Of a stretch of DNA of 64,000 nucleotides, positions 1,038-24,510 are shown piece after piece. The DNA is taken from contig NZ_OZ156465.1 in the NCBI RefSeq assembly GCF_964212655.1, forward strand, positions 4,526,001-4,590,000, given 5' to 3'. Every line of letters begins with the position of its first letter. Positions within the stretch are counted from its first letter, which is position 1. The stretch comes from Candidatus Thiodiazotropha sp. LNASS1 (GTDB taxonomy: Bacteria > Pseudomonadota > Gammaproteobacteria > Chromatiales > Chromatiaceae). A program made the position numbers and the translations under genes. The notes under the pieces were generated by a model. That model saw nothing but the letters and a program-made list of their open reading frames with translations. It ran no database searches and had not been told where the DNA came from.

Positions 1038-1646
1038 TCATACCACCATAGTTGGAATCACATCGAGAGACTCCAGTGATTCCAACAATGAGTCAATGCA
1101 CTCATCGATATCCCGGTCCTCCGTATCGATGACGATTTCAGGATTCTCCGGTATCTCATAAGGGGATGAGATGCCTGTGAAGTCGGGGATCTCGCCCGCC
1201 CGTGCCTTTTTGTAGAGTCCCTTCACATCCCGTGATTCACAGGTTTCTATCGATGCTTTCACATAGACTTCGATAAAATCGTTCTCTTGAAAAAGTCGGC
1301 GTACGTTATCTCTGTCTTTGCGTATGGGAGAGATAAATGCAGTCAGTGCGATGGTTCCAGCATCGACAAACAGCTTCGACATTTCGCCAATCCGTCGTAT
1401 GTTTTCTGTGCGGTCCTCGATGTTAAAACCAAGATCCCGGCAGAGGCCATGTCTTACGTTATCGCCGTCAAAGACATAAGTCCTGCATCCACGTTGGTGA
1501 AGTCGTTCCTCCAGGGCATGCGCCAGGGTGGACTTGCCGGAACCCGAGAGACCGGTGAACCAGAGCAGTTTAGCCCGGTGCAGATTCATCTTTTCCCGTC
1601 GTTCCCGGGTGACGGTGGCATGGTGCCAATAGATATTATCATCCAT
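1038..1646 (-). CDS. cysC: Adenylyl-sulfate (APS) kinase
   Basis: Phosphorylates adenosine 5'-phosphosulfate (APS) to PAPS, the sulfate donor used by sulfotransferases. The 202-residue protein has the full CysC signature: P-loop GLSGSGKST (residues 32-40), DGDNVRHGLCRDLGF, FISPIRKDRD, and the C-terminal block with VKGLYKKARAGEIPDFTGI. It is a free-standing kinase, not fused to an ATP sulfurylase. It sits 60 bp downstream of the EPS-initiating transferase on the same strand, so the two are probably co-transcribed. No other sulfate-assimilation gene is nearby, whereas two sulfotransferase genes lie in the same polysaccharide locus. I infer that it supplies PAPS for sulfation of the polysaccharide. 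Confidence 0.95.
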   Translation of the reverse strand: MDDNIYWHHATVTRERREKMNLHRAKLLWFTGLSGSGKSTLAHALEERLHQRGCRTYVFDGDNVRHGLCRDLGFNIEDRTENIRRIGEMSKLFVDAGTIALTAFISPIRKDRDNVRRLFQENDFIEVYVKASIETCESRDVKGLYKKARAGEIPDFTGISSPYEIPENPEIVIDTEDRDIDECIDSLLESLESLDVIPTMVV

Positions 1647-1706
1647 GTTGGTAGTCCTTAATTCACTATATTGAAATTGATTATCATCAAGCGTGCCAAA
1701 CCAGAC

Positions 1707-3152
1707 TCAGTAGGCATTGTCATTTTTGAGATTGAATGGGGTCCTCAGTAAAATAGACAGATCAAGCCACAAAGACCAGTTGTTGATGTACTCCAAATCA
1801 TATTTGACCCGTTTCTCCATCTGCTTTAGTTCTTTGGTCTCTCCTCGAAATCCCCGAATCTGAGCCAACCCGGTAATCCCTGGCTTGATACGATGTCGTG
1901 CCAGATAGGCCTCGATTCGTTTTGAATACTCCAGATTGTGCTGGAGTGCATGAGGTCTGGGACCGACAAGCGACATCTGACCCGCCAAGACGTTAAGCAG
2001 TTGAGGCAGTTCATCGATGCTGGTGCGGCGTATGAATCGGCCAATGCGGGTGATGCGCGGGTCATCACGGGTCGCTTGTTTCACTATCCCATCCTTCTCG
2101 GTATGCAACCTCATGCTGCGGAACTTCCAGATCCTGAAGTGCTTTCCATCCCAGCCGGTGCGTTCCTGCCTGAAAAAGATCGGGCCGGGGGATTCAACCT
2201 TTATCAGGATCGCGGTGATCAACATGATCGGGCTGGCTAGAATCAGAAACATCAACGCTAATACGCGGTCCTCTATCGCCTTGATCAAAAGGTGAGAACC
2301 GATCAATGGGGTTTCCGACAGAGTTAGGATCGGTATGCCTGCCAATTCCTTTACGCTATGGTTAATCAGATTCAATGCAAATATATTCGGTGCCCAGTGA
2401 ATATTGACATTTTCATTCAACAGCTCGAAATAGATTTGCTGGATCATCGGTGAACTATCCAGCGATACGGCGATATAGATGGTCTGGATATCGTAAACTC
2501 TGATCAACCGATTTATATCTTCCAACCTGCCGACAACAGGCATGGCTGACCGGCCTGAATGATCGGTTGTGTCGTCGCAATCCGTGGCGGATACCACACC
2601 GACAACCTCTTCAGGCATCCACGGATTGCTGTTGATGCGGTCGTACAAATGGTTTGCCAGTGCGCCGCAGCCAATGATCAACGCCCTAGTGTTGGTCTCC
2701 TGCGAGACCATGTGCCGCTGTATCAATCTGAACCCGAAATGGAGGCTGACCTGGGCGAGATAACCCAATACAAAGAGCAGCAGCACCACCGCCCTGGAGT
2801 ATGTTTCGGTATATTTGGTGACAAACGCCAACAAGAGCAGGAAGGCGAAGGCACTGCTCCATGCCTTGAAAAGCTTGAAGGCCTTTTTCGTCATCGTACC
2901 GTGATGACGGTATATGTTCATCCTGTCATAGATCACCGACATGCTACCCAGCAACGCCAGGGCCAGTATGATGTAGTGAGAGGTCAGCTTGCCATGAAAT
3001 AAGAGTGGCAGGGCAAGAATTAAAATCACCACAGCCAGGCCGTCGAGGAAGGCCTGAAGCGAAGTGGTCAGGCTATTGCGGCGCTGTAGCAGTGACCGAT
3101 CAGATTGTTTGACCTCGAGCAAATCCCTCTCCTCCAGAGCTACTGCGATCAA
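1707..3152 (-). CDS. Undecaprenyl-phosphate sugar-1-phosphate transferase (EPS initiating enzyme)
   Basis: Starts EPS repeat-unit assembly by moving a sugar-1-phosphate from a nucleotide sugar onto undecaprenyl phosphate at the inner membrane. At 481 residues it matches the polyprenol glycosylphosphotransferase layout of WcaJ/EpsE-type enzymes: four predicted N-terminal membrane helices, a central Rossmann-like CoA_binding_3 region (ALIIGCGALANHLYDRI), a further membrane helix (LALMFLILASPIMLITAILI), and a C-terminal Bac_transf catalytic domain with KFRSM, RRTSIDELPQLLNVL and MSLVGPRPHA. The proposed start is a TTG with no clear Shine-Dalgarno sequence and no nearby ATG, so the N-terminus is uncertain. 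The sugar (glucose or galactose) cannot be read from sequence alone. It heads a minus-strand pair with cysC. Confidence 0.92.
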   Translation of the reverse strand: MIAVALEERDLLEVKQSDRSLLQRRNSLTTSLQAFLDGLAVVILILALPLLFHGKLTSHYIILALALLGSMSVIYDRMNIYRHHGTMTKKAFKLFKAWSSAFAFLLLLAFVTKYTETYSRAVVLLLFVLGYLAQVSLHFGFRLIQRHMVSQETNTRALIIGCGALANHLYDRINSNPWMPEEVVGVVSATDCDDTTDHSGRSAMPVVGRLEDINRLIRVYDIQTIYIAVSLDSSPMIQQIYFELLNENVNIHWAPNIFALNLINHSVKELAGIPILTLSETPLIGSHLLIKAIEDRVLALMFLILASPIMLITAILIKVESPGPIFFRQERTGWDGKHFRIWKFRSMRLHTEKDGIVKQATRDDPRITRIGRFIRRTSIDELPQLLNVLAGQMSLVGPRPHALQHNLEYSKRIEAYLARHRIKPGITGLAQIRGFRGETKELKQMEKRVKYDLEYINNWSLWLDLSILLRTPFNLKNDNAY

Positions 3153-4355
3153 TACGATTTCGCAGTGGTGGATTATGGGCCAAAGAAGACCGCAAGGAAA
3201 GAGGTTGGTTACAAGTTATGAAATAAAGATATCAACTCTGCATTGTTCATACATATCATTGCATATCAGTCGGATTTTGATCACAAATAATTCAGGAAAA
3301 AGTTTGAGAGTCTGATTGAAAATTGCTAAAAAAATGTGATCTGTCGCAAAAAGTCGTCAAAGCAATTACGCCAGACAGGGAAACTATACCGTGTAAAAAA
3401 TATTTATCCTTTACAATGAATGCGTGCAATAAAGTCGATCAGATCTGACAGGTTATACCCAAGGATAATGGAGTATGCCCAGTAATAATCAACTGTGAAG
3501 CAGTAGTAGTCTCGATTAATGGCATTGTGAATTGATATCGTTAAATTTTCTTGGTTAATGGAAAACCATGTTTTATTTTTGCACAGTACCATGAACCCAG
3601 GACTGGAATGCATTTTATTAAGCAGTGATCAATTAACTTTACGATGTCGAGGTATTCAACATTCAAATCAGCGATACAGATCCCAGATACACGTATAGCT
3701 GGGTACTCTCACTTCACGGTGACACGTTAAGCAGTGTAACAATTGTTGACAATGAAATCGGTACATAGTTTGTTCCCATGCCCGATGTTCTGGTATTCAC
3801 TGTAGTTAGTGATGGGATTAGAAACAGATTCGCTGATCTAAAAAGCCGAATATTTACTTGGTATTCTGAGTACCAGTATTTACACTCTCAATCGAGATGA
3901 AACTACCAATGGTATTTGCCGGTATGGCATATGGTGGTAACAATCGATGTGGTTCCACTGCCTGCGGCTACGTGGATGATCGGTACAGCCCAGATCGGTG
4001 TTACGGTCTTTAGCGCGCGCCATTCTCTGTAAGGGGTTTCATAAATGACAGTTCGAGGGATGGAGTTTCTTTGCAGGTGCTGGGAATGCTCATCTTTCAT
4101 TCAGATTGAGCTTACCCTGCTGTGTGGCTTGCCACCAGCCCTTCCCACACGATAGCGTCTCCTCCCTACAGCGATACTATGTGGCAAAGCATTGAACGGT
4201 ACAGAGGATACGGGATACGTGACACAGAGCTTAAATGACGGAAATGTTATTTAATATAATAATTCAAGCGCAACGCAAACAGATGCGGTTGTATATTAGA
4301 GTTATCTACTTAAGGTTGATTGTTGTGATACAATTCTAGCTTCGGTAAATCGGAA
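3153..4355. other. 1.2-kb intergenic spacer between divergent EPS operons
   Basis: No intact gene is visible. The part next to the minus-strand transferase (about 3153-3420) is AT-rich and should carry its promoter, though I cannot assign boxes with confidence. The middle holds a decayed VPLPA-CTERM gene, listed separately. The last 300 bases before the chain-length gene are AT-rich upstream sequence with no motif I can defend. A minus-strand open frame at 3404-3613 has no recognisable protein features and I do not count it as a gene. Confidence 0.6.
3637..4032 (+). pseudogene. Decayed VPLPA-CTERM (PEP-CTERM-type) protein with a PKD/REJ-like domain
   Basis: A single reading frame, broken only by a TAG at 3766-3768 and a TGA at 3898-3900, still reads like the end of an exosortase substrate. 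Around 3664-3840 it gives SDTDPRYTYSW, then VTIVDN, then FVPMPDVLVFTVVSDG, a worn PKD/REJ-type module like those in the PIG-L gene at 55.7 kb. From 3946 it gives DVVPLPAATWMIGTAQIGV followed by TVFSARHSL and TAA at 4030-4032. That is the three-part VPLPA-CTERM signal: VPLPA motif, hydrophobic segment, then a short basic end. No start codon or 5' part is recognisable. An intact exosortase of the matching type lies at 18.2 kb. The match is by eye and the two stops make a working product unlikely. Confidence 0.6.
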
Positions 4356-4367
4356 GTGACAGGGATA

Positions 4368-5975
4368 ATGGAAGAGGAAGAGTTACTGGGGATTGGCGAC
4401 TATTTCGCCATCCTTAAACGACGAAAAATGCAGCTGATCGTACCGGCAGCAATCATAATGCTATTGAGCATAGGCTTGGCACTCGGCCTGCCTTCCATCT
4501 ACCGTGCCGAAGCCACGATCCTGATCGAACAGCAGGAAATACCAAGTGAACTAGTCCGTTCCACCGTAACCTCTTACGCTGGTGAGCGTATCCAGGTTAT
4601 CAGCCAACGGGTAATGACCACTGCGAATCTTGGTAAGATCATCGATGAATACGGGCTCTATGCAGACGAAAGGGAAGACACCAGTATCACGTTGTTGGCA
4701 GAGGCGTTGCAGGAAGATATAGAACTCGAAATGATCAGCGCCGATGTGGTTGACCCGCGAAGCGGCCGACCCACCACCGCGACTATCGCATTCACACTCG
4801 CATACAGCAATGAGGTACCGCGGATTACGCAAAAGGTTACTAACGAACTCGTCTCGCTCTACCTCGGTGAAAATCTCAGGCAACGTACACAGTCTGCTTT
4901 TGAAACCTCAAGTTTTCTAAGCGCAGAAGCCGAACGGCTCAACCAGGAAATTACCGAACTGGAGGCATCTCTTGCAGACTTTAAAGAGAAAAACGTCAAC
5001 AATTTACCGGAACTCCAGCAGCTCAATATCCAACTCATGGAGCGCAATGAGCGGGAGTTGTCAGAAACCATTCAACAGATTCGAAGCCTTGAAGAACGAA
5101 AAATCTATCTTCAATCCGAATTGATGCAGATGAGTCCCACAACTGACCTCTACAACTCTAGCGGTAACAGGGTCGTGGGAACGGAAGATCGTCTACGAGC
5201 TCTACAGACAGAATATCTGGCACTTGCGACACGCTATACTGATGATCACCCCACCTTGATCAAAATGAAAGATGAAATCGAGGTGCTTGAAAAAGAACTC
5301 GATACCAATCTGGAAGAAAAGAAAAAGAAAGCACAATCTGACAACCCTGCGTATCTGCAGTTGTCAACACAGCTTAAAGCAGCGGTGGGTGAGTTAGCTT
5401 CCCTCAATACGATGAGAGAGGAAATCAAAGGTAAGATCAAAGATTTTGAAGAGCGACTGATGCAAAGCCCGCAGGTGGAGCGGGAGTACCGTAATCTGAC
5501 ACGTGACTATGAGAATGCCCTGTTAAAGTACCAAGAGGTTAAAGCTAAACAACTTGAGGCACAATTGGCAGAGTCGCTGGAACGTGAGCGAAAAGGCGAG
5601 CGCTTCTCCCTCATTGAGCCACCCCAGTTGCCAGAGAAACCGGATAAACCCAATCGTATGGCGATTCTCTTTCTGGGTTTTGTTTTCAGCTTTGCCGGTG
5701 GCTTCGGCAATGTAGTCGTCAGAGAGAGTATGGATCAGAGTGTGTACGGAAGCAAAGGCGTCGCGGCCATTACCCATGCACCTCCCTTGGCTGTCATTCC
5801 TTATATTGAATGCAGTGAGGACCAGCGGCAGCATACAACAAATGGCGCGATAGCAATTTTTGGTTTAATCGCAGCGATGGCTATAACGGTGGTCTCTGTT
5901 CACTTGTTCTATAAACCCTTGGATGTCATCTGGTACATCGTACTGCGAAAACTGGGCATAGAGCTGGGTGTATGA
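4368..5975 (+). CDS. Wzz/GNVR-type polysaccharide chain-length determinant protein
   Basis: Inner-membrane polysaccharide co-polymerase that sets EPS chain length and works with the adjacent tyrosine autokinase. Layout: short cytoplasmic N-terminus (GIGDYFAILKRRKMQL), first membrane helix at about residues 26-46, a long periplasmic coiled coil rich in Glu, Leu and Gln, the conserved proline-rich block before the second helix (PPQLPEKPDKPNR), the second helix (MAILFLGFVFSFAGGF) and a further hydrophobic segment near the C-terminus. The length (about 535 residues) fits exosortase-associated GNVR proteins. ATG 4368 is preferred; an in-frame GTG at 4356 would add four residues. Its stop overlaps a tiny ORF, and the tyrosine kinase follows 94 bp later. 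Confidence 0.9.
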   Translation: MEEEELLGIGDYFAILKRRKMQLIVPAAIIMLLSIGLALGLPSIYRAEATILIEQQEIPSELVRSTVTSYAGERIQVISQRVMTTANLGKIIDEYGLYADEREDTSITLLAEALQEDIELEMISADVVDPRSGRPTTATIAFTLAYSNEVPRITQKVTNELVSLYLGENLRQRTQSAFETSSFLSAEAERLNQEITELEASLADFKEKNVNNLPELQQLNIQLMERNERELSETIQQIRSLEERKIYLQSELMQMSPTTDLYNSSGNRVVGTEDRLRALQTEYLALATRYTDDHPTLIKMKDEIEVLEKELDTNLEEKKKKAQSDNPAYLQLSTQLKAAVGELASLNTMREEIKGKIKDFEERLMQSPQVEREYRNLTRDYENALLKYQEVKAKQLEAQLAESLERERKGERFSLIEPPQLPEKPDKPNRMAILFLGFVFSFAGGFGNVVVRESMDQSVYGSKGVAAITHAPPLAVIPYIECSEDQRQHTTNGAIAIFGLIAAMAITVVSVHLFYKPLDVIWYIVLRKLGIELGV

Positions 5976-6082
5976 TGAGAAATAATCGGTACCAGCAACA
6001 AATAGAGAATGCGTACCAGAAATTATTTTTTAATGAGAAGTTCATGGCTAGATCCGCAGTGAGGCGATTATGGAAAAAATAA
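5972..6082 (+). CDS. Possible 36-residue ORF coupling the chain-length and kinase genes
   Basis: ATG at 5972 overlaps the stop of the chain-length gene in an ATGA arrangement, and the frame ends at TAA 6080-6082, thirteen bases inside the kinase gene. The peptide starts MMRNNRYQQQIENAYQKL and ends MARSAVRRLWKK; it is basic with no membrane segment. I recognise no family. It could simply be a path for translational coupling from the chain-length gene to the kinase. Confidence 0.2.
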   Translation: MMRNNRYQQQIENAYQKLFFNEKFMARSAVRRLWKK

Positions 6083-6888
6083 AACAAGCACTAGAGCGCG
6101 CCCGTGATGCTCATACAACAACAAAAAATGATGGCCATCGTCGTACACTAGTACGTCAAGTACCGGAGCCGGAAGTCACATCGAAGATAACCTATATCAA
6201 AACCAAATCAGTTGAAATATCAAAAGATCAGTTAAGAGAAAAGCGGGTCATCGCAGGTGATACCAATGATTCAATATCAGATCAATATAAGGTGCTTCGC
6301 ACCCATGTACTCCAGAGACTGAAGGCCAATCAGTGGAATTCTTTGGCTGTGACCAGTCCCAATGAAGGTTGCGGAAAAACCCTTACCTCAATCAATCTTG
6401 CCATCAGCCTGGCCAGGGAAGTCAATCATTCGGTGCTACTGGTAGATATGGATCTTAGGCGCCCCAGCATTCATCGTTACTTCTTCACGGATGAACAACC
6501 AGGGATCAGTGAGTACCTGACTGAAGACTTAGAGCTGAGTGAGATTCTTTTCAATCCAGATTTAGAGCGGTTAGTCATTCTGCCGGGTAACAAGCCTTTT
6601 TCAAATTCCTCGGAAATGCTCTCATCACCAAAGATGGTGCAACTGGTTGAAGAGCTAAAAAATCGATATCCGAATCGTATCGTTATCTTTGATATGCCAC
6701 CATTACTCTCTTGTGACGATATGATTGCATTCTCACCCTATATCGATGCAATTATGTTGGTTGTAGAAGAGGGTGGTACGCGTAAGGATGAACTTAAGCG
6801 GGCTTATGAATTAATCGAAAATACTCGTGTTATCGGTACTGTACTGAATAAATCTAAAGATAAAAGCTCATCCTACGGTTACTATTAG
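6070..6888 (+). CDS. Exosortase-associated tyrosine autokinase (BY-kinase)
   Basis: Cytoplasmic bacterial tyrosine kinase that controls EPS polymerisation through its membrane partner, the GNVR protein encoded just upstream. The 272-residue protein has Walker A SPNEGCGKT (96-104), Walker A' VLLVDMDLRRP (122-132), Walker B IVIFDMP (204-210) and a C-terminal Tyr cluster SSSYGYY for autophosphorylation. There is no fused periplasmic domain, so it is the split form known from XrtA-type EPS loci. The N-terminal MEKIKQALERAR is typical of that subfamily. The next gene begins about 110 bp downstream, where the AT-rich part of the locus starts. Confidence 0.93.
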   Translation: MEKIKQALERARDAHTTTKNDGHRRTLVRQVPEPEVTSKITYIKTKSVEISKDQLREKRVIAGDTNDSISDQYKVLRTHVLQRLKANQWNSLAVTSPNEGCGKTLTSINLAISLAREVNHSVLLVDMDLRRPSIHRYFFTDEQPGISEYLTEDLELSEILFNPDLERLVILPGNKPFSNSSEMLSSPKMVQLVEELKNRYPNRIVIFDMPPLLSCDDMIAFSPYIDAIMLVVEEGGTRKDELKRAYELIENTRVIGTVLNKSKDKSSSYGYY

Positions 6889-6917
6889 TTGTTGTGTTGT
6901 GATTACATGGCTGGTGT

Positions 6918-6931
6918 TTACACTAGTGTAA
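6918..6931. promoter_or_regulatory. 14-bp perfect palindrome upstream of the flippase gene
   Basis: TTACACTAGTGTAA is a perfect palindrome in the 110-bp gap between the tyrosine autokinase and the flippase gene. It could be an operator or the stem of a small hairpin. It has no U-tract and I see no second copy, so no function can be assigned. Confidence 0.25.
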
Positions 6932-6999
6932 CGTAGTAGTAGCTAGAAACCTTCTTTACATCTGCTTCCAACTGATTATGAAATAAACTGTAGATATTG

Positions 7000-8352
7000 A
7001 TGCCGAAAAGCTTAACAAAAATAGTATTTACAGGAGCAGTGTGGGCGCTAAGTATAAAGATGATAGGTGTTTTAAGCTCACTTTCAATTAATGTAATACT
7101 TGCGCGCATATTATCAACTGATGAGATGGGTGCTTATTTTATATTGACGAGCCTTGTATTATTTGGCTCGTTATTGGCACGCTATGGAATTAAGCAAGTT
7201 GTGGTAAAAATCGTTGCAGAATCACTTGCGGATAATAGGCCTGGCAGTGCTGCTGATGCAATATGGAAAATGCTGTTTATAATCACTATAGGTGTGATGG
7301 TGGTTTGCAGTATGTATTATCTAGTGATTGGGAGATTGATGGTTATAGATGTATTTGATATCCAGATTTTAGAAAATATTATAGGTGTTAGCGCGATCTG
7401 GATATTGATACTTGCTTACCAGACTCCATTAGCAGAGGTATTTAGGGGGGTGCATGATATCAGGTTAGCATCATTGTTTGATGGTGTGTTATTCAGTTTT
7501 ATGCTAGCGCTACTTCTGTTGGGAATATGGATGCTAGATTTGAACCTAACGTTTTTTCAATTGATAGATACATCCGTGTTCCTGGCTGGTTTCAGTCTTT
7601 TTATTACAATCGTTATCCTTGCTCGTAGAAGAGTGATGTTTGTTGGACAAGGAAAAACAAGCTTAAGAAATATAATAGAGATATCTAGCCCTTTATTTAT
7701 AACAAATGTTATCAATCAGATATTAACTAATTTTAGTTTATGGGTCGCCGCAATATTCCTGGTTACTGCAGATGTTGCATTATATGGAGCAGCATGGAAA
7801 TTAGTGATGTTGGTAACATTTCCTTTAATGATTGTAAATATGACTGTACAGCCGGTAATCTCTGAATTATATACAACTGGAAGGTATTACCATCTTCAAG
7901 CAGTTTTGCAAGGTATGGCTACTTTAGCATTTATACCATCGCTCCTGATACTTATTGTTTTTATAATTTGGAGTGGGGGAGTCCTTAATATTGTATATGG
8001 CCCAGACTACGTGAACGCAGCATTGGCTTTAGGTATCCTAAGTTTTGGCCAATTATTTAACGCATGGACTGGTTCATGCGGGATCGTTTTGGCCTTTACT
8101 GGGCATCATGATAATTTAATGAAAATAACAATAACTACAGGTGTATTATCCATGCTACTGGCTGTTCTGCTTGCCAATCAATGGGGATTAACAGGGATCG
8201 CGCTGGCTGTATCAATAGGTCGGATAATACACAATGGATATGCATGGATAGCAGTAAGAAAATATACTGGACTATGGACACATGCCTCATTTAATCCAAT
8301 ATTTATAGGTGATGCAATCAGAAGAGTATTGAGAGGTGATATCCATACTTAA
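7000..8352 (+). CDS. Wzx-type polysaccharide flippase
   Basis: Multi-spanning inner-membrane protein expected to flip the lipid-linked repeat unit to the periplasm. It has about 450 residues, is hydrophobic throughout with 12-14 predicted helices, and begins with the family's typical N-terminal block (MIGVLSSLSINVILARILSTDEMGAYF read as two stretches: a first helix, then the ARILSTDEMGAYF loop). The MOP/Wzx assignment rests on this block, the length and the context. ATG 7000 is preferred over the TTG directly before it. It is the first gene of the AT-rich stretch, suggesting that the variable part of the locus was acquired or exchanged separately from its flanks. Confidence 0.88.
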   Translation: MPKSLTKIVFTGAVWALSIKMIGVLSSLSINVILARILSTDEMGAYFILTSLVLFGSLLARYGIKQVVVKIVAESLADNRPGSAADAIWKMLFIITIGVMVVCSMYYLVIGRLMVIDVFDIQILENIIGVSAIWILILAYQTPLAEVFRGVHDIRLASLFDGVLFSFMLALLLLGIWMLDLNLTFFQLIDTSVFLAGFSLFITIVILARRRVMFVGQGKTSLRNIIEISSPLFITNVINQILTNFSLWVAAIFLVTADVALYGAAWKLVMLVTFPLMIVNMTVQPVISELYTTGRYYHLQAVLQGMATLAFIPSLLILIVFIIWSGGVLNIVYGPDYVNAALALGILSFGQLFNAWTGSCGIVLAFTGHHDNLMKITITTGVLSMLLAVLLANQWGLTGIALAVSIGRIIHNGYAWIAVRKYTGLWTHASFNPIFIGDAIRRVLRGDIHT

Positions 8353-8488
8353 GAAATGTGTTTCTGAAATATCAGGATTTTCTTTTGCGAAGAGATGATA
8401 TTTTTATTTAAAACAATTTATGCCAAGTTTAAATATGATTTACCTTAGTTCATAATTCCGGAATTTATTATATATCAATGTTATTAAA

Positions 8489-9526
8489 ATGAGCATTACC
8501 CTAGCGACTATCATATACGATGATAGATCAGGTTCAACTTATCTTTCATCGCTTTTGAATGAAATGCCATGTATTACCGTTACACTAGAAAGTAGTATCC
8601 TTACTATTCTAGCATGCCATGGTAATGATCTACGATCTAGAGAAGAAGTTCTCAGATTTCTCGGAATATTAAAAGAGGAGCAGAAGTTTAAGAACTGGCA
8701 ATTTAACGAAATCATGCAAGTCAATCTTTTGAATTCCCTGAGTTATCCACTGAGTGCAACTAACCTTTTGCATCAATTACTTACTATCATATTTCCAGAT
8801 AGTACAAATTGTACGAATATCGTATTTATAATTAAGCAAGTACAAATTGAATATATTGATCTAATAATAGATGTTGTACCGGGACTAAAATTTATATTGT
8901 TATATCGTGATGGTCGTGGAGTATTTGCATCAAAAAAGAGATCAAGACACTCTATATATGGTGTGCCGATGGCTATCAATCCTGTATCAGCCGCACAAAA
9001 ATGGAGAAATATCTTAGGAGCAAAGAGTTATATTAAAGACCAGAATAATATTCTGGAAGTAAAATATGAGGAACTGCTGGTTACAAAAGATAAAGTAATT
9101 GGGAATATTTCTGAATTTCTTTTCAATGAGACACGGGTAATCAGTCATCAAGATAACTATTCGGCGGACTTGGATGATAACCCAAGTAATAATAGATATG
9201 CACAAGCAATTCCTGCATCGCAACGCCACCTACATAAGAATGTTGGAAAGGTTGCGAATAAGGATAGAGCAGAGGCATGGAAAAATGAATTGTCAAGTAT
9301 AGAGATATGGTTGTATGAGAGAACAGTATCATCCTTACTAAAAGACCATGAGTACTTACTGTGTAACGAAACAGCACCAAAGAAAATTCATCTTTTTATC
9401 TTCTTTACGCATGTAAAACTAAGGGAAGTTACATACAGTATAAGGAGAAATATTATTTTGATAAAATCTATGATGAGATCACCAAATACTGTTATTGCAA
9501 AACTTTTACATAAACTGCAAAAATAA
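8489..9526 (+). CDS. PAPS-dependent sulfotransferase (first of two)
   Basis: Predicted to transfer sulfate from PAPS to a carbohydrate. The 345-residue protein has the 5'-phosphosulfate loop near the N-terminus (DDRSGSTYLSSLL, residues 11-23) and the 3'-phosphate motif (YRDGRGVFASKKRS, 139-152), in the usual order and spacing for carbohydrate sulfotransferases. A later WRN...VKYEELL block also fits the family. There is no signal peptide, so it should act on nucleotide- or lipid-linked sugars in the cytoplasm. It lies in the AT-rich part of the EPS locus between flippase and polymerase. The acceptor sugar is unknown. The same locus encodes CysC, the enzyme that makes PAPS. Confidence 0.82.
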   Translation: MSITLATIIYDDRSGSTYLSSLLNEMPCITVTLESSILTILACHGNDLRSREEVLRFLGILKEEQKFKNWQFNEIMQVNLLNSLSYPLSATNLLHQLLTIIFPDSTNCTNIVFIIKQVQIEYIDLIIDVVPGLKFILLYRDGRGVFASKKRSRHSIYGVPMAINPVSAAQKWRNILGAKSYIKDQNNILEVKYEELLVTKDKVIGNISEFLFNETRVISHQDNYSADLDDNPSNNRYAQAIPASQRHLHKNVGKVANKDRAEAWKNELSSIEIWLYERTVSSLLKDHEYLLCNETAPKKIHLFIFFTHVKLREVTYSIRRNIILIKSMMRSPNTVIAKLLHKLQK

Positions 9527-9535
9527 TTATGTGAA

Positions 9536-10852
9536 ATGAACTCATTACCTTCTAGGCTCGTTCAATTAACTATATTTGCGAATATAGCACTTGCGGCTGT
9601 ATATCTTTATTCCTATGTTGTAACTCCTGAGAGAATCCTGGCAGTAACAACAGTCATTAGTTTGCTATTATTTGTAAACAAAGTACGTCCTATTTCAAGG
9701 CAAACAAAAAAAGTCTTGATTGTTGGATTTAGTTTAATTCTATTTAAGTACTTAGTTGATTCAACAATTCACATTCAAAATATATTTGATCCAATAAAAA
9801 TTGCTTTAATAGAAATATTTGCGCTTGTATATTTACCCATTGTTGAGTGGAATAAAATATCGAACAAGGTGGTTTATAACACGATACTAATTAGTGCGAT
9901 ACCTGGAATCATTTTCGGAGTTATTCAGGCGCTTGGAGCTAACATAACTATTAAAAATTTAGTGCCAAACAATCCTATAGTAATATTTGAAAAAGAAAGG
10001 TTTGATTATTTTGAACATACTGGAAGAATTATCGGTACATTTACAACAGGTGTATTGTTTTCATTGTTGTTAGGTACACTGTTTATTATACTAATGGTTC
10101 GCCTTTGGGAAGGATCCAACTATTTAAGAAACTATATTAAGAAGATTTTATTCACGACTATATTATTATTAATATTCTTTTTGATTCTATACACGCAGAC
10201 ACGAAGTGCGATATATGGATTGCCAGCCTCTGTTATACTTGGATACTATTTGAGTAGTCGGCATTTTGTTAAAAAAACGTTTATTGTGTTACTAGCTGGT
10301 GTTATAGGAGTTATTTCTTTTGGTACCTTTCAAATGCTTGTTACTGGCGTGTCACAGAGAAGCACATTAGGAATAGATGCTAACACATACTATAAGCTAA
10401 CTTCTAATATATATGGAGTGTATGCGGCGCTTGCGAGAGATCCATTATTTGGTGTTCCTGTAAATAGACGTTTAGATAGAGGAGAAGGTTCTAATGACGA
10501 TATGATATTAGTCGAGGAAGGGAGACGTAAGCTAGGAAAAATTATTACAACAGGTGAATCCTATCAGCTTGTTGCTACTAACCATAATCAAATTGCTTAT
10601 TATATTAAATATTACGGGTTAATTGGATTTTCATTATTTATTTTACTTCTTTATGTAGTGTTCAAGAAAATTCAACAAAAGGAAGATAGTGCAACTAGGT
10701 TTATTTTAATGTGTGTATTTGTTTACCACATTCAGTTTTCACTACTACACAACAATCAATTATTAGAAACACTCTTGTTTTGGATATTGTTAGGATTAGG
10801 TGATGAGTATAAGTATACCAACCGTAAGCGTGCTAATGGCGACGTACAATGA
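9536..10852 (+). CDS. Wzy/O-antigen-ligase-like EPS polymerase
   Basis: Multi-spanning membrane protein of 438 residues with 10-12 predicted helices and one large periplasmic loop after the middle helices, the layout of the Wzy_C/O-antigen ligase family. Recognisable family features are the TQTRSAIYGLPASVILGYYL segment and the loop with RDPLFGVPVNRR and later NHNQIAYYIKYYG. In this position it most likely polymerises repeat units in the periplasm; a ligase role cannot be excluded. The gene begins 9 bp after the sulfotransferase and its end overlaps the next glycosyltransferase by 50 bases, so the three are co-translated parts of one operon. Confidence 0.82.
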   Translation: MNSLPSRLVQLTIFANIALAAVYLYSYVVTPERILAVTTVISLLLFVNKVRPISRQTKKVLIVGFSLILFKYLVDSTIHIQNIFDPIKIALIEIFALVYLPIVEWNKISNKVVYNTILISAIPGIIFGVIQALGANITIKNLVPNNPIVIFEKERFDYFEHTGRIIGTFTTGVLFSLLLGTLFIILMVRLWEGSNYLRNYIKKILFTTILLLIFFLILYTQTRSAIYGLPASVILGYYLSSRHFVKKTFIVLLAGVIGVISFGTFQMLVTGVSQRSTLGIDANTYYKLTSNIYGVYAALARDPLFGVPVNRRLDRGEGSNDDMILVEEGRRKLGKIITTGESYQLVATNHNQIAYYIKYYGLIGFSLFILLLYVVFKKIQQKEDSATRFILMCVFVYHIQFSLLHNNQLLETLLFWILLGLGDEYKYTNRKRANGDVQ

Positions 10853-11771
10853 CTATACTACTCTTGATGATGCAATAAAAAGTATCATTAATCAAACGTT
10901 CAAGGATTTTGAATTTATCATAGTTGATGATGGGTCGACTGATGGTTCATCAGAAATAGTAGAATATTGGTCTAAACAGGATGATAGAATACGAGTAATT
11001 TCGCAGAAAAATAATACTGGATTAACTATAGCATTGAATAATGGTTTAAACGTTGCTCGTGGGAAATATATAGCCAGACAGGATGCAGATGATATTAGTC
11101 TGCCAGAGCGTTTATCTATACAGATTACGACATTAAAAGAAAATAAAAAACTTGTACTTGTTGCGAGTGATTATGAGTGCATCCTAGATGATGGTGAATA
11201 CTTAACGACTATTAGAAATTCACAAAAGAGAAATATAAAGAAAAAGTTATTAAAACGAAATGAAATTGTTCATGGTACAGCAGTGTTCCCTCGTTTAATT
11301 GGAAATGCACAGGTAATGTATGACCCGCTATATAAAAGAGCGCAAGACTATGATTTATGGCTAAGGCTTACTGAATACGGTGATGTCGTTATATTACCAA
11401 ATGTACTCTATAAATTTAGATATAGAAGAGAAGGAATTACTGCAAAAAATACGGCCTTCTCAAAGGAATCATGTGCAATAAGAGCATTGGAAAATCGAAA
11501 ATTACGTGATTTAGGTAGCGCAGAAAATAGATGCCCTATAATAAATAAAGATGTTACTAAACAAACAAATATTAAATCGCAAACTGGTAATTACGATTTG
11601 AACTGTGCAATACGCTGTATGTCTGGATATGACTCCATAAATGCAAGAAAATATTCATACAAATCTTTAAAAATGATGCGAAATGACTACCGTGGGAAAA
11701 TACAGGCAGTTAAAATTATTATCATTTCATGGTTGCCTGTTAGCATATTACGAATAGTGAGACAGATATAA
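10803..11771 (+). CDS. Family 2 glycosyltransferase
   Basis: Cytoplasmic GT-A fold glycosyltransferase that adds a sugar to the growing EPS repeat unit. The N-terminus has the GT2 signature VSVLMATYNDYTTLDDAI and FIIVDDGSTDGSSEIV, followed by the ARQDADD metal-binding block and a QDYDLWLRL acceptor-side motif. The start is ATG 10803; a GTG three bases earlier is less likely. It overlaps the polymerase gene by 50 bp. Donor and acceptor sugars cannot be predicted. The C-terminal 80 residues are basic and of unclear role. Confidence 0.88.
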   Translation: MSISIPTVSVLMATYNDYTTLDDAIKSIINQTFKDFEFIIVDDGSTDGSSEIVEYWSKQDDRIRVISQKNNTGLTIALNNGLNVARGKYIARQDADDISLPERLSIQITTLKENKKLVLVASDYECILDDGEYLTTIRNSQKRNIKKKLLKRNEIVHGTAVFPRLIGNAQVMYDPLYKRAQDYDLWLRLTEYGDVVILPNVLYKFRYRREGITAKNTAFSKESCAIRALENRKLRDLGSAENRCPIINKDVTKQTNIKSQTGNYDLNCAIRCMSGYDSINARKYSYKSLKMMRNDYRGKIQAVKIIIISWLPVSILRIVRQI

Positions 11772-11914
11772 ATATTCAAACAACAAATACATATCACATG
11801 CATAGTATTGAGCAATTATTTATGATCATCTTATATACTATGAATTGATATTTTATCAACATATTATAATAGTATGGTCCTCAATAGAGTTTTTGTGTTT
11901 TATGTCTTTCAGTA

Positions 11915-12640
11915 ATGAATATTTATCATTCAACAGTGGACAAAATGATTAGATCGATTGTTAGAAATATAATTGTAGATATACCAGTTATATATTGGCC
12001 GATAGCTAGGATTTTTCGTAGTAGTAATATCGTAACAAAACAAACCGATCTGGTTATAGAAGGTTTCCCCAGATCTGGAAATACCTTTTCATGCCGCGCA
12101 TTCCGCCATGCCCAAATAGGAGAATATAAAATAGCATCACATTTACATTCTACTGTCCAGGTTAAAATGGCGTGTAAATGGAATATACCATGCTTAGTAT
12201 TAATACGAGAGCCTGAGGAGGCTATCATATCGTATGTACTTTATGAGGGAGATTGTGATATCGAAAAACTATATAAAATATATATAAAATTTTACTCTGA
12301 AATTGAAAACCTACAGAATAAGTTTGTTACAGCTGCATTTAGTGATGTTATTAATAATTTTGATATTGTGATTGACCGACTAAATAAAAAATATAATATG
12401 AACTACACTAGTTTTGAACACTCAAAAGAAAACGTAGCTGAGTGCTTTTCAGGAATGGAAAAGTCAATGAAAGAAAGAGGGACTTATCATGAGTTGCGAG
12501 TAAGTAGGCCACTAGAAAAAAGAGATAAATTAAAAAAGAGAATTAAGTTGAATATAGAGAAAAATGTTAATTGTGAATTAAAAAAAACGGCATCAAATAT
12601 TTATAAAAGGTACTTGGATCGTGTAATTCGTGATAACTAA
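11915..12640 (+). CDS. PAPS-dependent sulfotransferase (second of two)
   Basis: A 241-residue protein with both PAPS-binding motifs of the sulfotransferase fold: EGFPRSGNTF (residues 49-58; the phosphosulfate loop, with Asn where many members have Thr) and IREPEEAIISYVL (97-109; the 3'-phosphate site with conserved Arg and Ser). It is shorter than the other sulfotransferase in the locus and not closely similar to it, so it probably modifies a different position or sugar. The C-terminal third is rich in Lys and Arg. The coding sequence is strongly AT-rich, like its neighbours. The acceptor is unknown. Confidence 0.78.
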   Translation: MNIYHSTVDKMIRSIVRNIIVDIPVIYWPIARIFRSSNIVTKQTDLVIEGFPRSGNTFSCRAFRHAQIGEYKIASHLHSTVQVKMACKWNIPCLVLIREPEEAIISYVLYEGDCDIEKLYKIYIKFYSEIENLQNKFVTAAFSDVINNFDIVIDRLNKKYNMNYTSFEHSKENVAECFSGMEKSMKERGTYHELRVSRPLEKRDKLKKRIKLNIEKNVNCELKKTASNIYKRYLDRVIRDN

Positions 12641-12697: not shown

Positions 12698-13873
12698 ATG
12701 GATATTCAAAGGAGATTGTTTTGCTTTTGTTTGCTATTTTCACCACTGATTAATTCAAAAGAAAATACAGCTCATAGTTGCCTCAAAGTAGATATTAAAT
12801 CTACCAATATATATTATGAAGTTAATACAGTAACTGATTTTAATAAGCAACATATACATAGTTATTTTGATCTAAATCCTGACAACCCAAGTGGAAATGA
12901 TTTATTGTGCTTTCGTTTTTCAGATCAAGTACCGGGAGTCGGAGATATAATTATTAACCGTGAATTTGACCCGAAAAAAGCACTCGTAATTGCAAAAGGA
13001 ATAAGCGGAACGGCACATGAAGCGGCTTTGCAACAGTGGCTAACGGATGAAATAATAGCCTATGTTGATAACAATAAAGAAAATGTTACAACTGAAATCG
13101 TGTCATCAAGTGGAAAGCACTTAATGAGAATTACAGGGGGATTGAGGTCAGCAAATTCAAGGACTATGCTGGGATTGTTTTCCAGCCATGAATTAAGACG
13201 ACCTGAGAAAAAGATTAAACAAGAGTTTGTAAGAGTCATAGATCTGAAATCAGGTGATATACACTTAAATATTGTGTTAGATGATCTCTTACAGGAAGAG
13301 GCACTAAATAAAATATTAAAAAACGCTACAGGATATAAAATTAAACATCCAAAGTGGTCACCAGACGGTAATCATTTCCTTTTTGTCTTGTTTAACAACA
13401 AAAGATTAGAGTATGGGCCAAGAAAAATATTGATATTGTCAGATAGAGATGGAAATAATATAAGTTATATTGGAGAAAATATACATCACCCTGTGTGGGG
13501 TCGAACTGGAAATAATATTTACTATTTCAAGGGAGAAGGTAAAGAACAAACATTATATAAATATGATCTCACACTGAGATATTCAGTAACTGTGATGACG
13601 AGAATGACAGGAGATCATATTAATGTTCACCCATCTGGTAAGCTGTTTGTTGTGGATAAGGTTACTAGATCTAAATCTAGGGATGGACAAATATTATTAT
13701 TAAATGACGCAGGGGAAATATTAACTAGACTCAGCTACAAGGGGGATAATATTAGCTATAGAAAAAGACTTCATTCACATCCAATTTGGTCAAGAGACGG
13801 GTGCTCAGTCTTTGCGAACATTATCGAGAATGGTGTAAGAGGAGTTGTCAAGATAGATTTTAATTTGGCATGA
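12698..13873 (+). CDS. Secreted TolB/oligogalacturonide-lyase-like beta-propeller protein
   Basis: A 391-residue protein with a short hydrophobic N-terminus (LFCFCLLFSPLINS) that looks like a signal peptide. The rest has spaced propeller-blade motifs: IHSYFDLNPDNPSGNDLLCF, HPKWSPDGNHFLFV, HHPVWGRTGNNIYYF, NVHPSGKLFVVD and HPIWSRDGCSVFA. These recall the PD40/TolB repeats and the propeller of oligogalacturonide-lyase-type enzymes, but I cannot identify catalytic residues. It lies among the sulfotransferase and glycosyltransferase genes and shares their AT-rich composition. It may bind, trim or monitor the finished polysaccharide; that is inference. It may equally be a structural propeller without activity. 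Confidence 0.6.
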   Translation: MDIQRRLFCFCLLFSPLINSKENTAHSCLKVDIKSTNIYYEVNTVTDFNKQHIHSYFDLNPDNPSGNDLLCFRFSDQVPGVGDIIINREFDPKKALVIAKGISGTAHEAALQQWLTDEIIAYVDNNKENVTTEIVSSSGKHLMRITGGLRSANSRTMLGLFSSHELRRPEKKIKQEFVRVIDLKSGDIHLNIVLDDLLQEEALNKILKNATGYKIKHPKWSPDGNHFLFVLFNNKRLEYGPRKILILSDRDGNNISYIGENIHHPVWGRTGNNIYYFKGEGKEQTLYKYDLTLRYSVTVMTRMTGDHINVHPSGKLFVVDKVTRSKSRDGQILLLNDAGEILTRLSYKGDNISYRKRLHSHPIWSRDGCSVFANIIENGVRGVVKIDFNLA

Positions 13874-14044: not shown

Positions 14045-15217
14045 GTGTCATATAAAATACTCATTGTACATAACAAATATCAACAATATGGCGGTGAAGA
14101 TTCTGTAGTTGAAGCTGAAATTAAATTACTTCAAGAGAATGGACACATTATCGAACTATATACTAGAGATAATAGTGAGATTGGTAGATTAAGCAGTATA
14201 AAATTGCTACTAGATGCTATTTGGTCAAGAAAAAGTACATTAGAAATTAAAGAAATAATTTCGAAAGTAAGACCTGATATTATGCATGTACATAATACAT
14301 TCCCACTCATATCTCCATCTATTTATTGGGCAGCATCAAAGTATAACGTTCCAATAGTTCAAACAATTCACAATTTTCGACTTTCTTGTATACAAGCGAT
14401 GTTCTTGAGAGATAAAAAAATCTGTGAAGATTGTCTTGCTAAGTCACCTTGGAGAGGCATCATAAGAAAATGTTATCGAGAATCTCTGCTAGCTAGTATG
14501 TCTGCTGCTGCTATTCTGCAGTTTCATAGGATAATTGGTACATATCAAAGAAAAGTAAATGCATATATAGCACTGAATAATTTCTGTAAAAATAAACTTG
14601 TCGAAATAGGCTTGCCTGAGGATAAAATATGTATCAAACCGAATTTTGTTTCGCTTACAAATAAGAGTAGTAGGAATGAGAGGAGCGGTAATCCACTATT
14701 TGTAGGCAGATTATCTGAAGAAAAAGGAATTGCTACTCTAGTGCAGTCAATAAAATCGCTGCCTAACCAAATGTTTGATATTGTAGGTGATGGTCCAGAA
14801 AGGTATATTTTTGAGAATATCACTAATGTAAAGATGTTTGGATCTATTAACCAAGATAGTGTTTATGAGTTAATGCAAAAAACACCTTTTTTAGTTCTAC
14901 CTAGTATATGTTACGAGAGCATGCCAAGAACGCTTGTAGAGTCGTTTGGAAGCGGTGCTCCAGTAATTGCGAGTGACATAGGAGCCCTTGCCGAATTAAT
15001 AGAACATCGTAGAACTGGACTATTATTTAAACCAGGATCATCTTATGAACTAACGCGAGTAATTACTTGGGCGCTTAATAATTCGAAGGAAATGGAAGAA
15101 ATGGGTATAAATGCAAAAGATGTATACGATAGAAATTATACTGACAGTATTAACTATCAAATGTTATTAAAAATAATAAAGAGAGTAGTTCAGAAAGCAC
15201 GTGAAACAAATACTTAA
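14045..15217 (+). CDS. Family 4 glycosyltransferase
   Basis: Cytoplasmic GT-B glycosyltransferase for EPS repeat-unit assembly. N-terminal domain: ILIVHNKYQQYGGEDSVV and the HVHNTFPLISPSIYWAA / VQTIHNFRLSC block. C-terminal donor-binding domain: FVGRLSEEKGIATLV, IVGDGPE, and the CYESMPRTLVESFGSGAPVI segment with the conserved E-x7-E. The GTG start at 14045 has only a weak Shine-Dalgarno sequence, but the next residues (SYKILIVHNK) are what the family begins with. The donor sugar is not predictable. AT-rich like its neighbours. Confidence 0.9.
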   Translation: MSYKILIVHNKYQQYGGEDSVVEAEIKLLQENGHIIELYTRDNSEIGRLSSIKLLLDAIWSRKSTLEIKEIISKVRPDIMHVHNTFPLISPSIYWAASKYNVPIVQTIHNFRLSCIQAMFLRDKKICEDCLAKSPWRGIIRKCYRESLLASMSAAAILQFHRIIGTYQRKVNAYIALNNFCKNKLVEIGLPEDKICIKPNFVSLTNKSSRNERSGNPLFVGRLSEEKGIATLVQSIKSLPNQMFDIVGDGPERYIFENITNVKMFGSINQDSVYELMQKTPFLVLPSICYESMPRTLVESFGSGAPVIASDIGALAELIEHRRTGLLFKPGSSYELTRVITWALNNSKEMEEMGINAKDVYDRNYTDSINYQMLLKIIKRVVQKARETNT

Positions 15218-15293: not shown

Positions 15294-16061
15294 GTGAATC
15301 CATCATTTAACCACAAATACATATTAGGAATGCGAGTCGATGAAATTTCTATTGACAAGTCACTCGCTTTGATTATTGATTGGGCGAATAGAAGAGAAAG
15401 CAAGTATATCTGTGTATCTAATGTCCATATGTGCATGGAAGCATTTGACAAATCATCTTTTCAAAATATTGTAAATAGTTCAGATCAGGTTGTGCCCGAT
15501 GGTATGCCATTGGCTGTAGGCATGAGATTACTTGGAAGTAAATATAGTCAGCAAATTAGGGGGGCGGACCTAACGCGTTCAATTCTAGAACATGCAAATA
15601 ATAAAGGGTTAGTCATTGGATTATATGGTGGAACAGAAGAAGCGGTAGCAAAAATAGTATCTATCATAAAGAAAGAGTATCAAAGTATTACAGTTGGCTG
15701 TGGAATATCACCGCCTTTTCATGCATTGAGTGAACAACAGGATAATCAGTACGTGAAAATAATTAATGATGCAAACGTGCAAATCCTGCTTGTAGGTTTA
15801 GGTTGTCCTAAACAGGAAATATGGATGGCCAAGCATAAGGGAAAAGTAAATGCAGTTATGGTGGGTGTTGGTGCAGTATTTGATTTCTTGAGTGGAACAA
15901 AAATGGAAGCACCACGATGGATCCAAAATATAGGATTAGAGTGGCTGTTTCGATTGCTTTCAGAACCTAATAGACTTTGGAAGCGGTATGCAATCCATAA
16001 TCCTAGATTTATCATATATTTTTTTAAACAACTCTTAAGTATTCGATTGGGAAAAGCATGA
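15294..16061 (+). CDS. WecG/TagA/CpsF-family glycosyltransferase
   Basis: GT26-family enzyme that typically adds the second sugar onto an undecaprenyl-diphosphate-linked sugar. The 255-residue protein shows [18 protein letters not shown], the GLYGG motif, [14 protein letters not shown] and the [21 protein letters not shown] signature, with the C-terminal [17 protein letters not shown] block that associates it with the membrane. GTG 15294 is the proposed start, preceded by AAAGGCA. Its stop overlaps the gmd start in an ATGA junction, so the AT-rich glycosyltransferase stretch is transcribed into the GDP-fucose genes. Confidence 0.92.
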
Positions 16062-17167
16062 AAAAGGCATTTATAACAGGAATAACCGGACAGGATGGCG
16101 CGTATTTAGCTGAACTCCTTCTAAAAAAAGGCTATGAAGTACATGGATTAAAGCGCCGTGCCTCCTCATTCAATACAGATCGAGTAGACCATCTGTATCA
16201 AGACCCACATGCAGAAAAAAGGGATTTCATACTGCACTATGGTGACTTGACTGATTCAACAAACCTCATTCGTGTCATACAGGAGATACAACCGGAAGAG
16301 ATCTATAATCTTGCTGCACAGAGCCATGTTGCTGTCTCATTCGAAACACCGGAATACACCGCCAATGCAGATGCGATTGGCACCCTAAGACTACTTGAAG
16401 CCATTCGAATTCTTGGTCTTGAGAAAAAAACTCGTTTTTATCAGGCATCAACTTCTGAACTGTTTGGTGAGGTACAAGAGACGCCGCAGCGGGAAACCAC
16501 TCCCTTCTATCCTCGTTCTCCTTATGCTTGTGCAAAACTCTATTCCTATTGGATTACAGTCAACTATCGAGAGGCTTACGGGATGTATGCCTGTAACGGC
16601 ATCCTGTTCAATCATGAGTCTCCGGTAAGAGGAGAAACATTTGTAACACGCAAGATCACCCGTGCCATGGCGCGTATCCGTCTCGGTTTGCAGGAATGCC
16701 TCTATCTGGGAAATATGAATGCACTGAGAGACTGGGGTCATGCCCATGACTATGTGAAAATGCAGTGGTTAATGCTGCAGCAGGAGCAGCCTGATGATTT
16801 CGCTATCGGTACAGGTGAACAGCACTCAGTGCGCGAATTTGTAGACGTTGCTGCTAAGGAACTTGGTATCTCGTTGCGCTGGGAGGGAGAGGGGCTGGAT
16901 GAACAGGGGATTGTTGAATCAAACACAAACGATAAGGGTCCGCAACCTGGAGTGGTGATTGTACGAGTTGATCCACGTTATTTCCGCCCAACAGAGGTGG
17001 AGACACTGCTTTGTGATCCCAGTAAGGCTAAGAGTGAGTTGGGCTGGGAACCTGAGATTACTTTCACAGAACTGGTTTCTGAAATGGCCAGAGAAGATCT
17101 GGCCCTTGCTCAGAAGGATGTTGCAATTGAAAAAGCCGGTTTCCGCTCTTACCGCTATTTCGAGTGA
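16058..17167 (+). CDS. gmd: GDP-mannose 4,6-dehydratase
   Basis: Converts GDP-D-mannose to GDP-4-keto-6-deoxy-mannose, first step to GDP-L-fucose. Short-chain dehydrogenase fold: N-terminal NADP-binding [14 protein letters not shown], the HYGDLTD motif, [13 protein letters not shown], and the catalytic Ser/Tyr-x3-Lys region (STSELFG and [15 protein letters not shown]). Length 369 residues is normal. The start overlaps the wecG-like stop by four bases. Codon and base composition return here to the normal level of the genome after the AT-rich stretch. The substrate is made by manB and manC about 11 kb downstream. Confidence 0.96.
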
Positions 17168-17181
17168 TAGGGGGTTAAGGA

Positions 17182-18123
17182 ATGGAAGCGGATACAAAGA
17201 TCTATGTCGCCGGTCACCGTGGGCTTGTGGGTGCGGCCATCGTTGAGCGGTTGAAAAAGAGTGGATTTACCAACCTTCTTTTGCGTACTCATGGAGAGCT
17301 CGACTTAATAAATCGTGATCAAGTTGAAGGATTCTTTAATAGCGAAAAACCGGACTATGTTTTTCTTGCGGCAGCTAGAGTAGGCGGCATACACGCAAAT
17401 AATACCTACCCGGTAGATTTTATTGTTGATAATCTTGCGATAGAGCTCAATGTCATCTCGGCAGCTTATGCCAATCACGTGAAACGATTGATGTTTCTTG
17501 GCAGCTCCTGCATCTATCCAAAGCTTTGTCCACAACCCATGAAGGAAGAGTATCTCCTGACAGGGTCGTTGGAGCCGACAAATGAGCCTTATGCTGTTGC
17601 CAAGATCGCCGGTATCAAGATGTGCGAGGCCTATAACCGCCAGTATGGGACAGAATTTATCTCAGTCATGCCTACCAATCTCTATGGTCCCAATGATAAC
17701 TTCGATCTGCAAAATTCACATGTTTTGCCCGCCCTGATTCGCAAATTTCATGATGCGAAGGAACGGGGTGATGAAAAGGTTGTTGTCTGGGGAACGGGTA
17801 CCCCACGTCGGGAGTTTCTCTATGTGGATGATATGGCCGATGCTTGTGTCTATGTCATGAACAAGAGCGGTTTTACCGATAGGGTGAATATCGGTGTGGG
17901 GGATGATATTTCTATCGGAGAGCTTGCTGAATTGGTTGGTGAAGTGGTTGGATATCATGGGCGCTTGGAGTTCGATACAAGTAAGCCGGATGGAACACCC
18001 CAAAAGCTATTGGATGTTGGTCGCCTCACTTCTCTTGGTTGGCAGGCTGAAACATCCTTGAAGGACGGGATTCAGCGTACCTATCAGTGGTTCCTGGAAA
18101 ACAGGGCGCATTTACGAATATAA
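17182..18123 (+). CDS. fcl: GDP-L-fucose synthase
   Basis: Epimerises and reduces GDP-4-keto-6-deoxy-mannose to GDP-L-fucose. N-terminal NADP-binding motif [16 protein letters not shown], the [15 protein letters not shown] block, the catalytic [16 protein letters not shown] and [20 protein letters not shown] region (Tyr-x3-Lys), and [10 protein letters not shown]. Length 313 residues is typical. It follows gmd by 14 bp with a GGGGTTAAGG leader. Together with manB-manC-gmd it gives a complete route from mannose-6-phosphate to GDP-fucose, so fucose is very likely a component of the polysaccharide. Confidence 0.95.
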
Positions 18124-24508: not shown

Positions 24509-24510
24509 CT

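Follow-up and report, generated by a model that had tools for sequence, protein, structure and literature searches.

A predicted sulfation step in an XrtD-type exopolysaccharide locus of Candidatus Thiodiazotropha

The 64,000-nucleotide stretch of the Candidatus Thiodiazotropha sp. LNASS1 genome analyzed here, referred to as the window, lies within a single complete contig of 4.75 Mb and carries an exopolysaccharide (EPS) locus, in which the adenylyl-sulfate (APS) kinase gene cysC and two unlike sulfotransferase genes, ST1 and ST2, accompany the gene of the exosortase XrtD (Table 1). Open reading frames (ORFs) for cysC, ST1 and ST2 are present where a first-pass annotation of the sequence had located them. 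XrtD scores above its curated cut-off and stands together with PrsT and EPS genes, as in an XrtD EPS locus. A sulfation step dependent on 3′-phosphoadenosine 5′-phosphosulfate (PAPS) within this locus is well supported by the sequence comparisons described below, and a sulfated EPS, made by a Wzx-type XrtD pathway, is its likely product.

The cysC gene lies directly behind the gene of the EPS-initiating transferase WcaJ, on the same strand and after a gap of 60 bases, as had been annotated. In an alignment with solved APS kinases (3uie, residues 3–176), its product retains the P-loop and the conserved APS kinase residues, and by this alignment and the curated models it is identified as an adenylyl-sulfate kinase. 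No other sulfate-assimilation gene was detected among the 46 window ORFs scanned (some ORFs of at least 150 residues, mostly overlapping, lay outside the scan), in line with the first-pass annotation, which saw no such neighbors. On the other hand, the description of the sulfation module as self-contained does not hold: the locus supplies only CysC and no ATP sulfurylase, Sat and AprA are encoded elsewhere in the genome, and the genome has three cysC copies, one in the EPS locus, one at a separate chromosomal site and one beside cysH, cysI and cysJ. A short ORF adjoining the cysJIH-cysC cluster (L009 8738–9268, at 2.44 Mb of the genome) has a sulfotransferase-like start by eye and no NCBIfam match.

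The two sulfotransferases lie among glycosyltransferase genes, as the first-pass annotation had described. ST1 is assigned by Pfam, and the profile of its family matches tyrosylprotein sulfotransferases and CurM. Its nearest named relative, 97% identical, is from a metagenome-assembled genome labeled 'gamma proteobacterium symbiont of Clathrolucina costata' (taxid 2860259). Scans of Pfam and NCBIfam, taken to E 0.01, gave no match to ST2, which hence falls outside the named sulfotransferase families. It belongs to an unnamed, conserved family spread over many phyla, in whose alignment R53, S54, R98 and S106 are invariant in all 23 sequences; we take these residues to form the 5′ and 3′ PAPS-binding motifs. 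Searched against PDB sequence profiles, the single ST2 sequence gave no match, and the family profile gave only chance-like matches (helical proteins and others), so the assignment was settled by the fold model. This model has a predicted local distance difference test (pLDDT) score of 87, and sulfotransferase-fold entries make up all 50 structure matches listed. By its motifs and modeled fold, ST2 is a predicted PAPS-type sulfotransferase. Neither ST1 nor ST2 shows a signal peptide by eye, and both are therefore probably cytoplasmic. The window genome encodes two more Sulfotransfer_3 proteins outside the EPS locus (L011 9696–10850, at 2.28 Mb, and L012 9850–10860, at 0.77 Mb).

Table 1. Genes and features of the XrtD EPS locus (positions in the window)
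Feature	Position	Strand	Basis
cysC (type a), EPS-linked third APS kinase copy	1038..1646	-	NF003013 311 bits (cut-off 163); TIGR00455 269 bits (cut-off 138.7); PF01583 227 bits
WcaJ-type undecaprenyl-phosphate hexose-1-phosphate transferase	1707..3152	-	TIGR03023 481 bits (cut-off 410.75)
Decayed remnant of small protein, named by the motif of its VPLPA-type C-terminus; probable XrtD target of this locus	3664..4029	+	similarity to congener proteins
Chain-length determinant, XrtA-system type	4356..5975	+	TIGR03007 253 bits (under cut-off 278.85)
Tyrosine autokinase	6070..6888	+	TIGR01007 119 bits (above cut-off); TIGR03018 192 bits (below cut-off)
Wzx-type flippase	6997..8352	+	PF01943 43 bits (above cut-off)
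ST1, PAPS-dependent sulfotransferase (Sulfotransfer_3)	8489..9526	+	PF13469 42.7 bits (cut-off 27); PF00685 24.6 (cut-off 22)
Candidate Wzy polymerase	9536..10852	+	by eye: hydrophobic make-up and cassette position
GT2 glycosyltransferase	10800..11771	+	PF00535 125 bits
ST2, predicted sulfotransferase of unnamed family	11915..12640	+	PAPS motifs and fold model
TolB-like protein, possibly secreted and glycan-active	12698..13873	+	weak TolB-type match
GT4-type glycosyltransferase	14045..15217	+	matches under curated cut-offs
WecG/TagA/CpsF glycosyltransferase	15294..16061	+	TIGR00696 169 bits (above cut-off)
gmd	16058..17167	+	TIGR01472 592 bits (above cut-off)
fcl	17182..18123	+	NF047922 518 bits (cut-off 500)
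XrtD exosortase with EpsI domain	18200..19777	+	TIGR04152 563 bits (cut-off 400)
PrsT tetratricopeptide repeat (TPR) protein	19993..22407	+	TIGR02917 324 bits (cut-off 312)
rfbB, rfbA, rfbC, rfbD (dTDP-L-rhamnose)	22563..25985	+	each above a cut-off
PEP-CTERM system ATPase-like protein	26220..27194	+	TIGR03015 296 bits (under cut-off 324.5)
Predicted phosphohexomutase (earlier 'manB')	27329..28825	+	under the cut-off of every model matched
manC, GDP-mannose pyrophosphorylase/phosphomannose isomerase	28810..30243	+	TIGR01479 711 bits (above cut-off)

The earlier assignments of gmd, fcl, rfbBACD, manC and XrtD stand at curated cut-offs. The gene called manB is a predicted phosphohexomutase, and its specificity for mannose is unproved. 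The polymerase candidate matched no family in the Pfam and NCBIfam scans. The cassette from Wzx to WecG has a GC content of 31–37%, as compared to 50–52% for cysC, WcaJ, XrtD and the genes after XrtD (51–52% from XrtD onward), with intermediate values for the chain-length gene (48%), the kinase gene (42%) and gmd and fcl (47%). The remnant between the WcaJ and chain-length genes is similar to intact congener proteins and contains two in-frame stops; no intact VPLPA-type target is encoded in the window locus, to which the search for targets was confined. At this site the ORF is open in eight congener loci (L118, L120, L122, L123, L124, L125, L142 and L144), two of the eight scanned intact proteins matching a PEP-CTERM model below its cut-off, while in G009 (L119) and G016 (L126) the similarity is kept and no such ORF was picked up (genomes are cited by G numbers and loci by L numbers).

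We compared 21 congeners, including the genome of the window, 13 of which encode an XrtD above the cut-off. An extra cysC beside WcaJ was found in ten of these 13 and in none of the eight without XrtD (one-sided Fisher test, p = 0.0008), showing that these genes do not stand together merely by chance. The ten copies form one clade in a quick tree (Shimodaira–Hasegawa-like approximate likelihood ratio test support, 97). As judged from the ratio of nonsynonymous to synonymous substitution rates (dN/dS), which was 0.02–0.09 among nine of the ten copies for pairs with computable dS, many pairs being dS-saturated, the locus cysC is under purifying selection. No cysC besides it was found in G008.

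The flanks of the locus (cysC, WcaJ, chain-length gene, kinase, XrtD and PrsT) are kept across the congeners, while the middle differs. Ten congener loci could be read across this cassette, those of G001, G008 and G011 being broken across contigs, and seven of the ten contain sulfotransferases, six together with the locus cysC (G000, G003, G009, G015, G016 and G019). In G019, three sulfotransferases exceed a Pfam cut-off and a fourth falls below it (L120:11364, 21.4), and the ST2-family member of G003 (L123:6837) has no useful Pfam match. From these comparisons, the predicted sulfotransferases are part of an exchangeable low-GC cassette, and cysC is part of the conserved frame. The cassettes of L118, L120, L124, L126 and L176 encode differing probable glycan-active proteins (pectate-lyase-like, GH71, GHL15 and GHL10), and that of the window is TolB-like; each cassette possibly includes one dedicated EPS-cleaving enzyme. 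Polysaccharide pyruvyl transferases occur in two congener cassettes (L119 8624–9655 and L123 5615–6667), and cassette swaps may alter other acidic decorations too. In G011, a second glycan locus (L220, contig C20) has several sulfotransferase matches.

Outside the genus, we surveyed XrtD loci in the class Gammaproteobacteria, where 42 of 369 genomes scored above the TIGR04152 cut-off, 40 of them non-congeners with XrtD at 42 places. Upstream sequence of up to 39 kb was inspected, and 23 places were judged; the other 19 had less than 27 kb upstream and no Sat-CysC fusion in sight. G270, with 19 kb upstream, was kept since its Sat-CysC lies inside that range. Sulfotransferases were detected with phmmer, starting from the known ones, and a motif, followed by a Pfam check. 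A Sat-CysC fusion, joining ATP sulfurylase to APS kinase, lies 12–27 kb upstream in all six XrtD loci with sulfotransferases (G114, G156, G171, G189, G270 and G367), as compared to three of the 17 without (p = 0.0008). The link persisted without G270 (p = 0.0021) and with G344 counted as positive (p = 0.005), though these p-values overstate independence, as families are shared (G156, G270 and G367; G114 and G342). Three of the six (G114, G156 and G367) had been selected because they contain sulfotransferases, at a point when the location of their APS kinase was not yet known. In whole-genome searches of G114, G128, G156, G171, G270, G342 and G367, the Sat-CysC fusion was the only full-length APS kinase in each. 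One of the two G367 sulfotransferases (L172:5548) scored 25.8, below the cut-off of 27, and the other 78. A Pfam scan of loci without sulfotransferases, covering eight ORFs of the G002 cassette, two of G128 and one of G342, found none. In G171, an ST2-family member and a further sulfotransferase occur together with Sat-CysC, manC, gmd and fcl. In L021, which extends to XrtD, and in the incomplete L026, the genes run from the chain-length protein through kinase, ATPase, Wzx and sulfotransferase to ST2. In G128, the XrtD locus also encodes a type I phosphodiesterase-like protein (L166 2990–4504). ST2-family loci in general show no link to cysC, which occurs in one of 69, and in the genomes of ten such loci no linkage stood out clearly from where the APS kinases lie, the matching of contigs to loci being incomplete.

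Two co-occurrences favor the sulfation reading, that of cysC with XrtD in the genus and that of Sat-CysC with sulfotransferases outside it. A third association, between cysC and sulfotransferases within the genus, was not significant (6/1/1/2, p = 0.18), and several further observations likewise weigh against the reading. The G002 locus has cysC and no detected sulfotransferase, and G006 has two sulfotransferases and no locus cysC; G007 and G010 have neither, and their cassette resembles that of G002. Elsewhere in the class, Sat-CysC is present but no sulfotransferase was detected at the XrtD loci of G116, G128 and G342, and the reverse applies to G344, with two TPR-sulfotransferases 28–30 kb upstream and no Sat-CysC. 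The two further cysC copies could make the locus copy redundant, and the acceptor substrates of ST1 and ST2 are not readable from sequence.

The mismatched loci of G002 and G006 would also be expected if the locus cysC were a relocated housekeeping duplicate that came to border the EPS locus by chance, any EPS sulfation then drawing on the other two CysC proteins. A second cysC type, 73–81% identical to the locus copy, is indeed present in 20 of the 21 congeners (all but G008), and in 11 of these 20, where the site was tested, its flanks match those of the separate-site copy in the window genome. As a possible refutation, the first-pass annotation had named a second cysC or cysN elsewhere whose loss alone abolishes PAPS; the first half of this holds, in that further cysC copies exist. 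However, the confinement of the locus copy to XrtD-bearing genomes, its separate conserved clade and the PAPS synthase near XrtD loci of other families make this explanation unlikely. Rather less probable is that the sulfotransferases act on a target other than EPS, such as a lipid, a glycolipid or a protein. The similarity of the ST1 profile to tyrosylprotein sulfotransferases, the unpredictability of ST1- and ST2-family substrates from sequence and the further sulfotransferases outside the EPS locus in genomes of the genus would suit such a role, whereas ST1 and ST2 lie amid the flippase, the polymerase candidate and the glycosyltransferases and vary among congeners together with them.

For an EPS sulfation step, APS would have to come from outside the locus. 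A single Sat, the only ATP sulfurylase detected, was found in the genome (432 bits, genome position 4467336, 59 kb from the locus), AprA scored 925 bits, and a search for CysD gave nothing above the cut-off, only a cysH cross-match below it. APS should thus derive from Sat or APS reductase; in Allochromatium vinosum, Sat is described as dissimilatory and assimilation as proceeding via CysDN (PMC3779200). APS is probably supplied by sulfur oxidation, in which APS reductase would act on sulfite, or by the single Sat. The EPS-linked CysC would phosphorylate APS to PAPS, and ST1 and ST2 would move sulfate from PAPS onto sugars of the repeat unit, carried on undecaprenyl, prior to its flipping by Wzx. 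The candidate Wzy would then polymerize the repeat units, with the chain-length/kinase pair presumably governing export. No PF00884 sulfatase was found in the window genome, which fits the synthesis of a sulfated glycan rather than its breakdown. A more far-reaching model, offered tentatively, is that a chemosynthetic bacterium of the clam-symbiont type uses a dedicated CysC duplicate to divert APS from sulfur oxidation into sulfated EPS, prior to its conversion to ATP and sulfate by Sat, and rewrites the sulfation pattern by swapping sulfotransferase/glycosyltransferase cassettes in a fixed exosortase frame. If so, a surface sulfation code could vary from strain to strain and bear on contact with the host.

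The first-pass annotation had predicted a sulfated polysaccharide with fucose and rhamnose, reminiscent of fucans; the sulfation step is supported, and the fucan is not established. Outside the genus, gmd-fcl occurs in five of the six sulfotransferase-bearing XrtD loci and in four of the 17 others (p = 0.018, or 0.039 without G270, tested post hoc). Both genes (>50% identity) are present in eight of 69 ST2-family loci, in L080 with ST2 between them, whereas several rml genes occur in only one (L027). Against a specifically sulfated fucan, which seems doubtful to us, the locus also makes rhamnose and mannose precursors, most ST2-family loci, many of them incomplete, have neither gmd-fcl nor an rml set, and among the seven congener loci with sulfotransferases, gmd-fcl is present in three and was not seen in four. 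Of these four, G015 and G019 were viewed on both sides of XrtD and G006 and G016 only in part, so that gmd-fcl is missing from at least two. Fucose as an EPS component is reasonable but unproved, and the comparisons give no sign that the sulfate is carried by it.

If the sulfation reading is correct, exosortase-type EPS loci become linked to polysaccharide sulfation, PAPS synthase and sulfotransferase genes near XrtD would serve as a sequence-based finder of sulfated EPS producers, an unnamed multi-phylum sulfotransferase family is added, and the feeding of surface sulfation by energy metabolism in sulfur-oxidizing symbionts becomes testable.

XrtA- and XrtD-type exosortases are associated with EPS loci. 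In its XrtD, PrsT, chain-length protein, kinase and ATPase, the window locus resembles the XrtA/XrtD EPS loci described by NCBIfam models. Rhizobial NodH/NodPQ likewise links PAPS supply to a sulfotransferase for a glycan, though the product is a lipochitooligosaccharide signal, the PAPS enzyme is a CysN/CysC-type fusion and there is no exosortase. Among the 42 XrtD places outside the genus, PAPS synthase is present at nine and in-locus sulfotransferases at six, 19 being too short to judge. A link between exosortases and polysaccharide sulfation was not found in the open-access literature searched and may exist in other papers; in the passages seen of papers pairing these terms, on polyketide clusters and on polysaccharide breakdown by Planctomycetota, exosortase appears only as a reference-list word. 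The paper on Vibrio sp. KMM 8419 is not among the open-access papers naming exosortase and sulfotransferase together (PMC11641403). For this strain and for Cobetia marina KMM 1449, sulfated capsules have been described whose gene clusters include PAPS genes along with sulfotransferases (PMC11641403, PMC11766843), a combination that the Vibrio paper terms a hallmark (PMC11641403); the statement that sulfated fucans are known mostly from algae and animals overlooked these marine capsules. The Vibrio polysaccharide cluster shares with the window sulfotransferases, rhamnose genes and an additional cysC, with second cysN and cysD copies as well, and its sulfated product was studied by nuclear magnetic resonance; it differs in directing an ABC-transporter capsule and in including ATP sulfurylase genes, where the window has only cysC in a Wzx-type, XrtD-type locus (PMC11641403). 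The Cobetia cluster similarly combines PAPS genes and a sulfotransferase with dTDP-rhamnose and GDP-mannose genes, but contains a cysN/cysC fusion, cysD, cysQ, a sulfate permease, an ABC transporter and wcb lipid carrier genes (PMC11766843). The synechan xss cluster of Synechocystis 6803 also has two unlike sulfotransferases (XssA and XssE) in an EPS cluster, and its sulfated product has been shown; it is cyanobacterial, and a search of the main text of that paper turned up neither 'PAPS' nor 'APS kinase' nor 'exosortase', the last being counted twice in the full text (PMC8205485). Thus, PAPS genes and sulfotransferases in clusters for sulfated capsules are known already, and the exosortase-linked form is new, its notable features being a cysC duplicate that goes with the locus, the exchange of cassettes, a PAPS synthase recurring in the vicinity of XrtD, and ST2.

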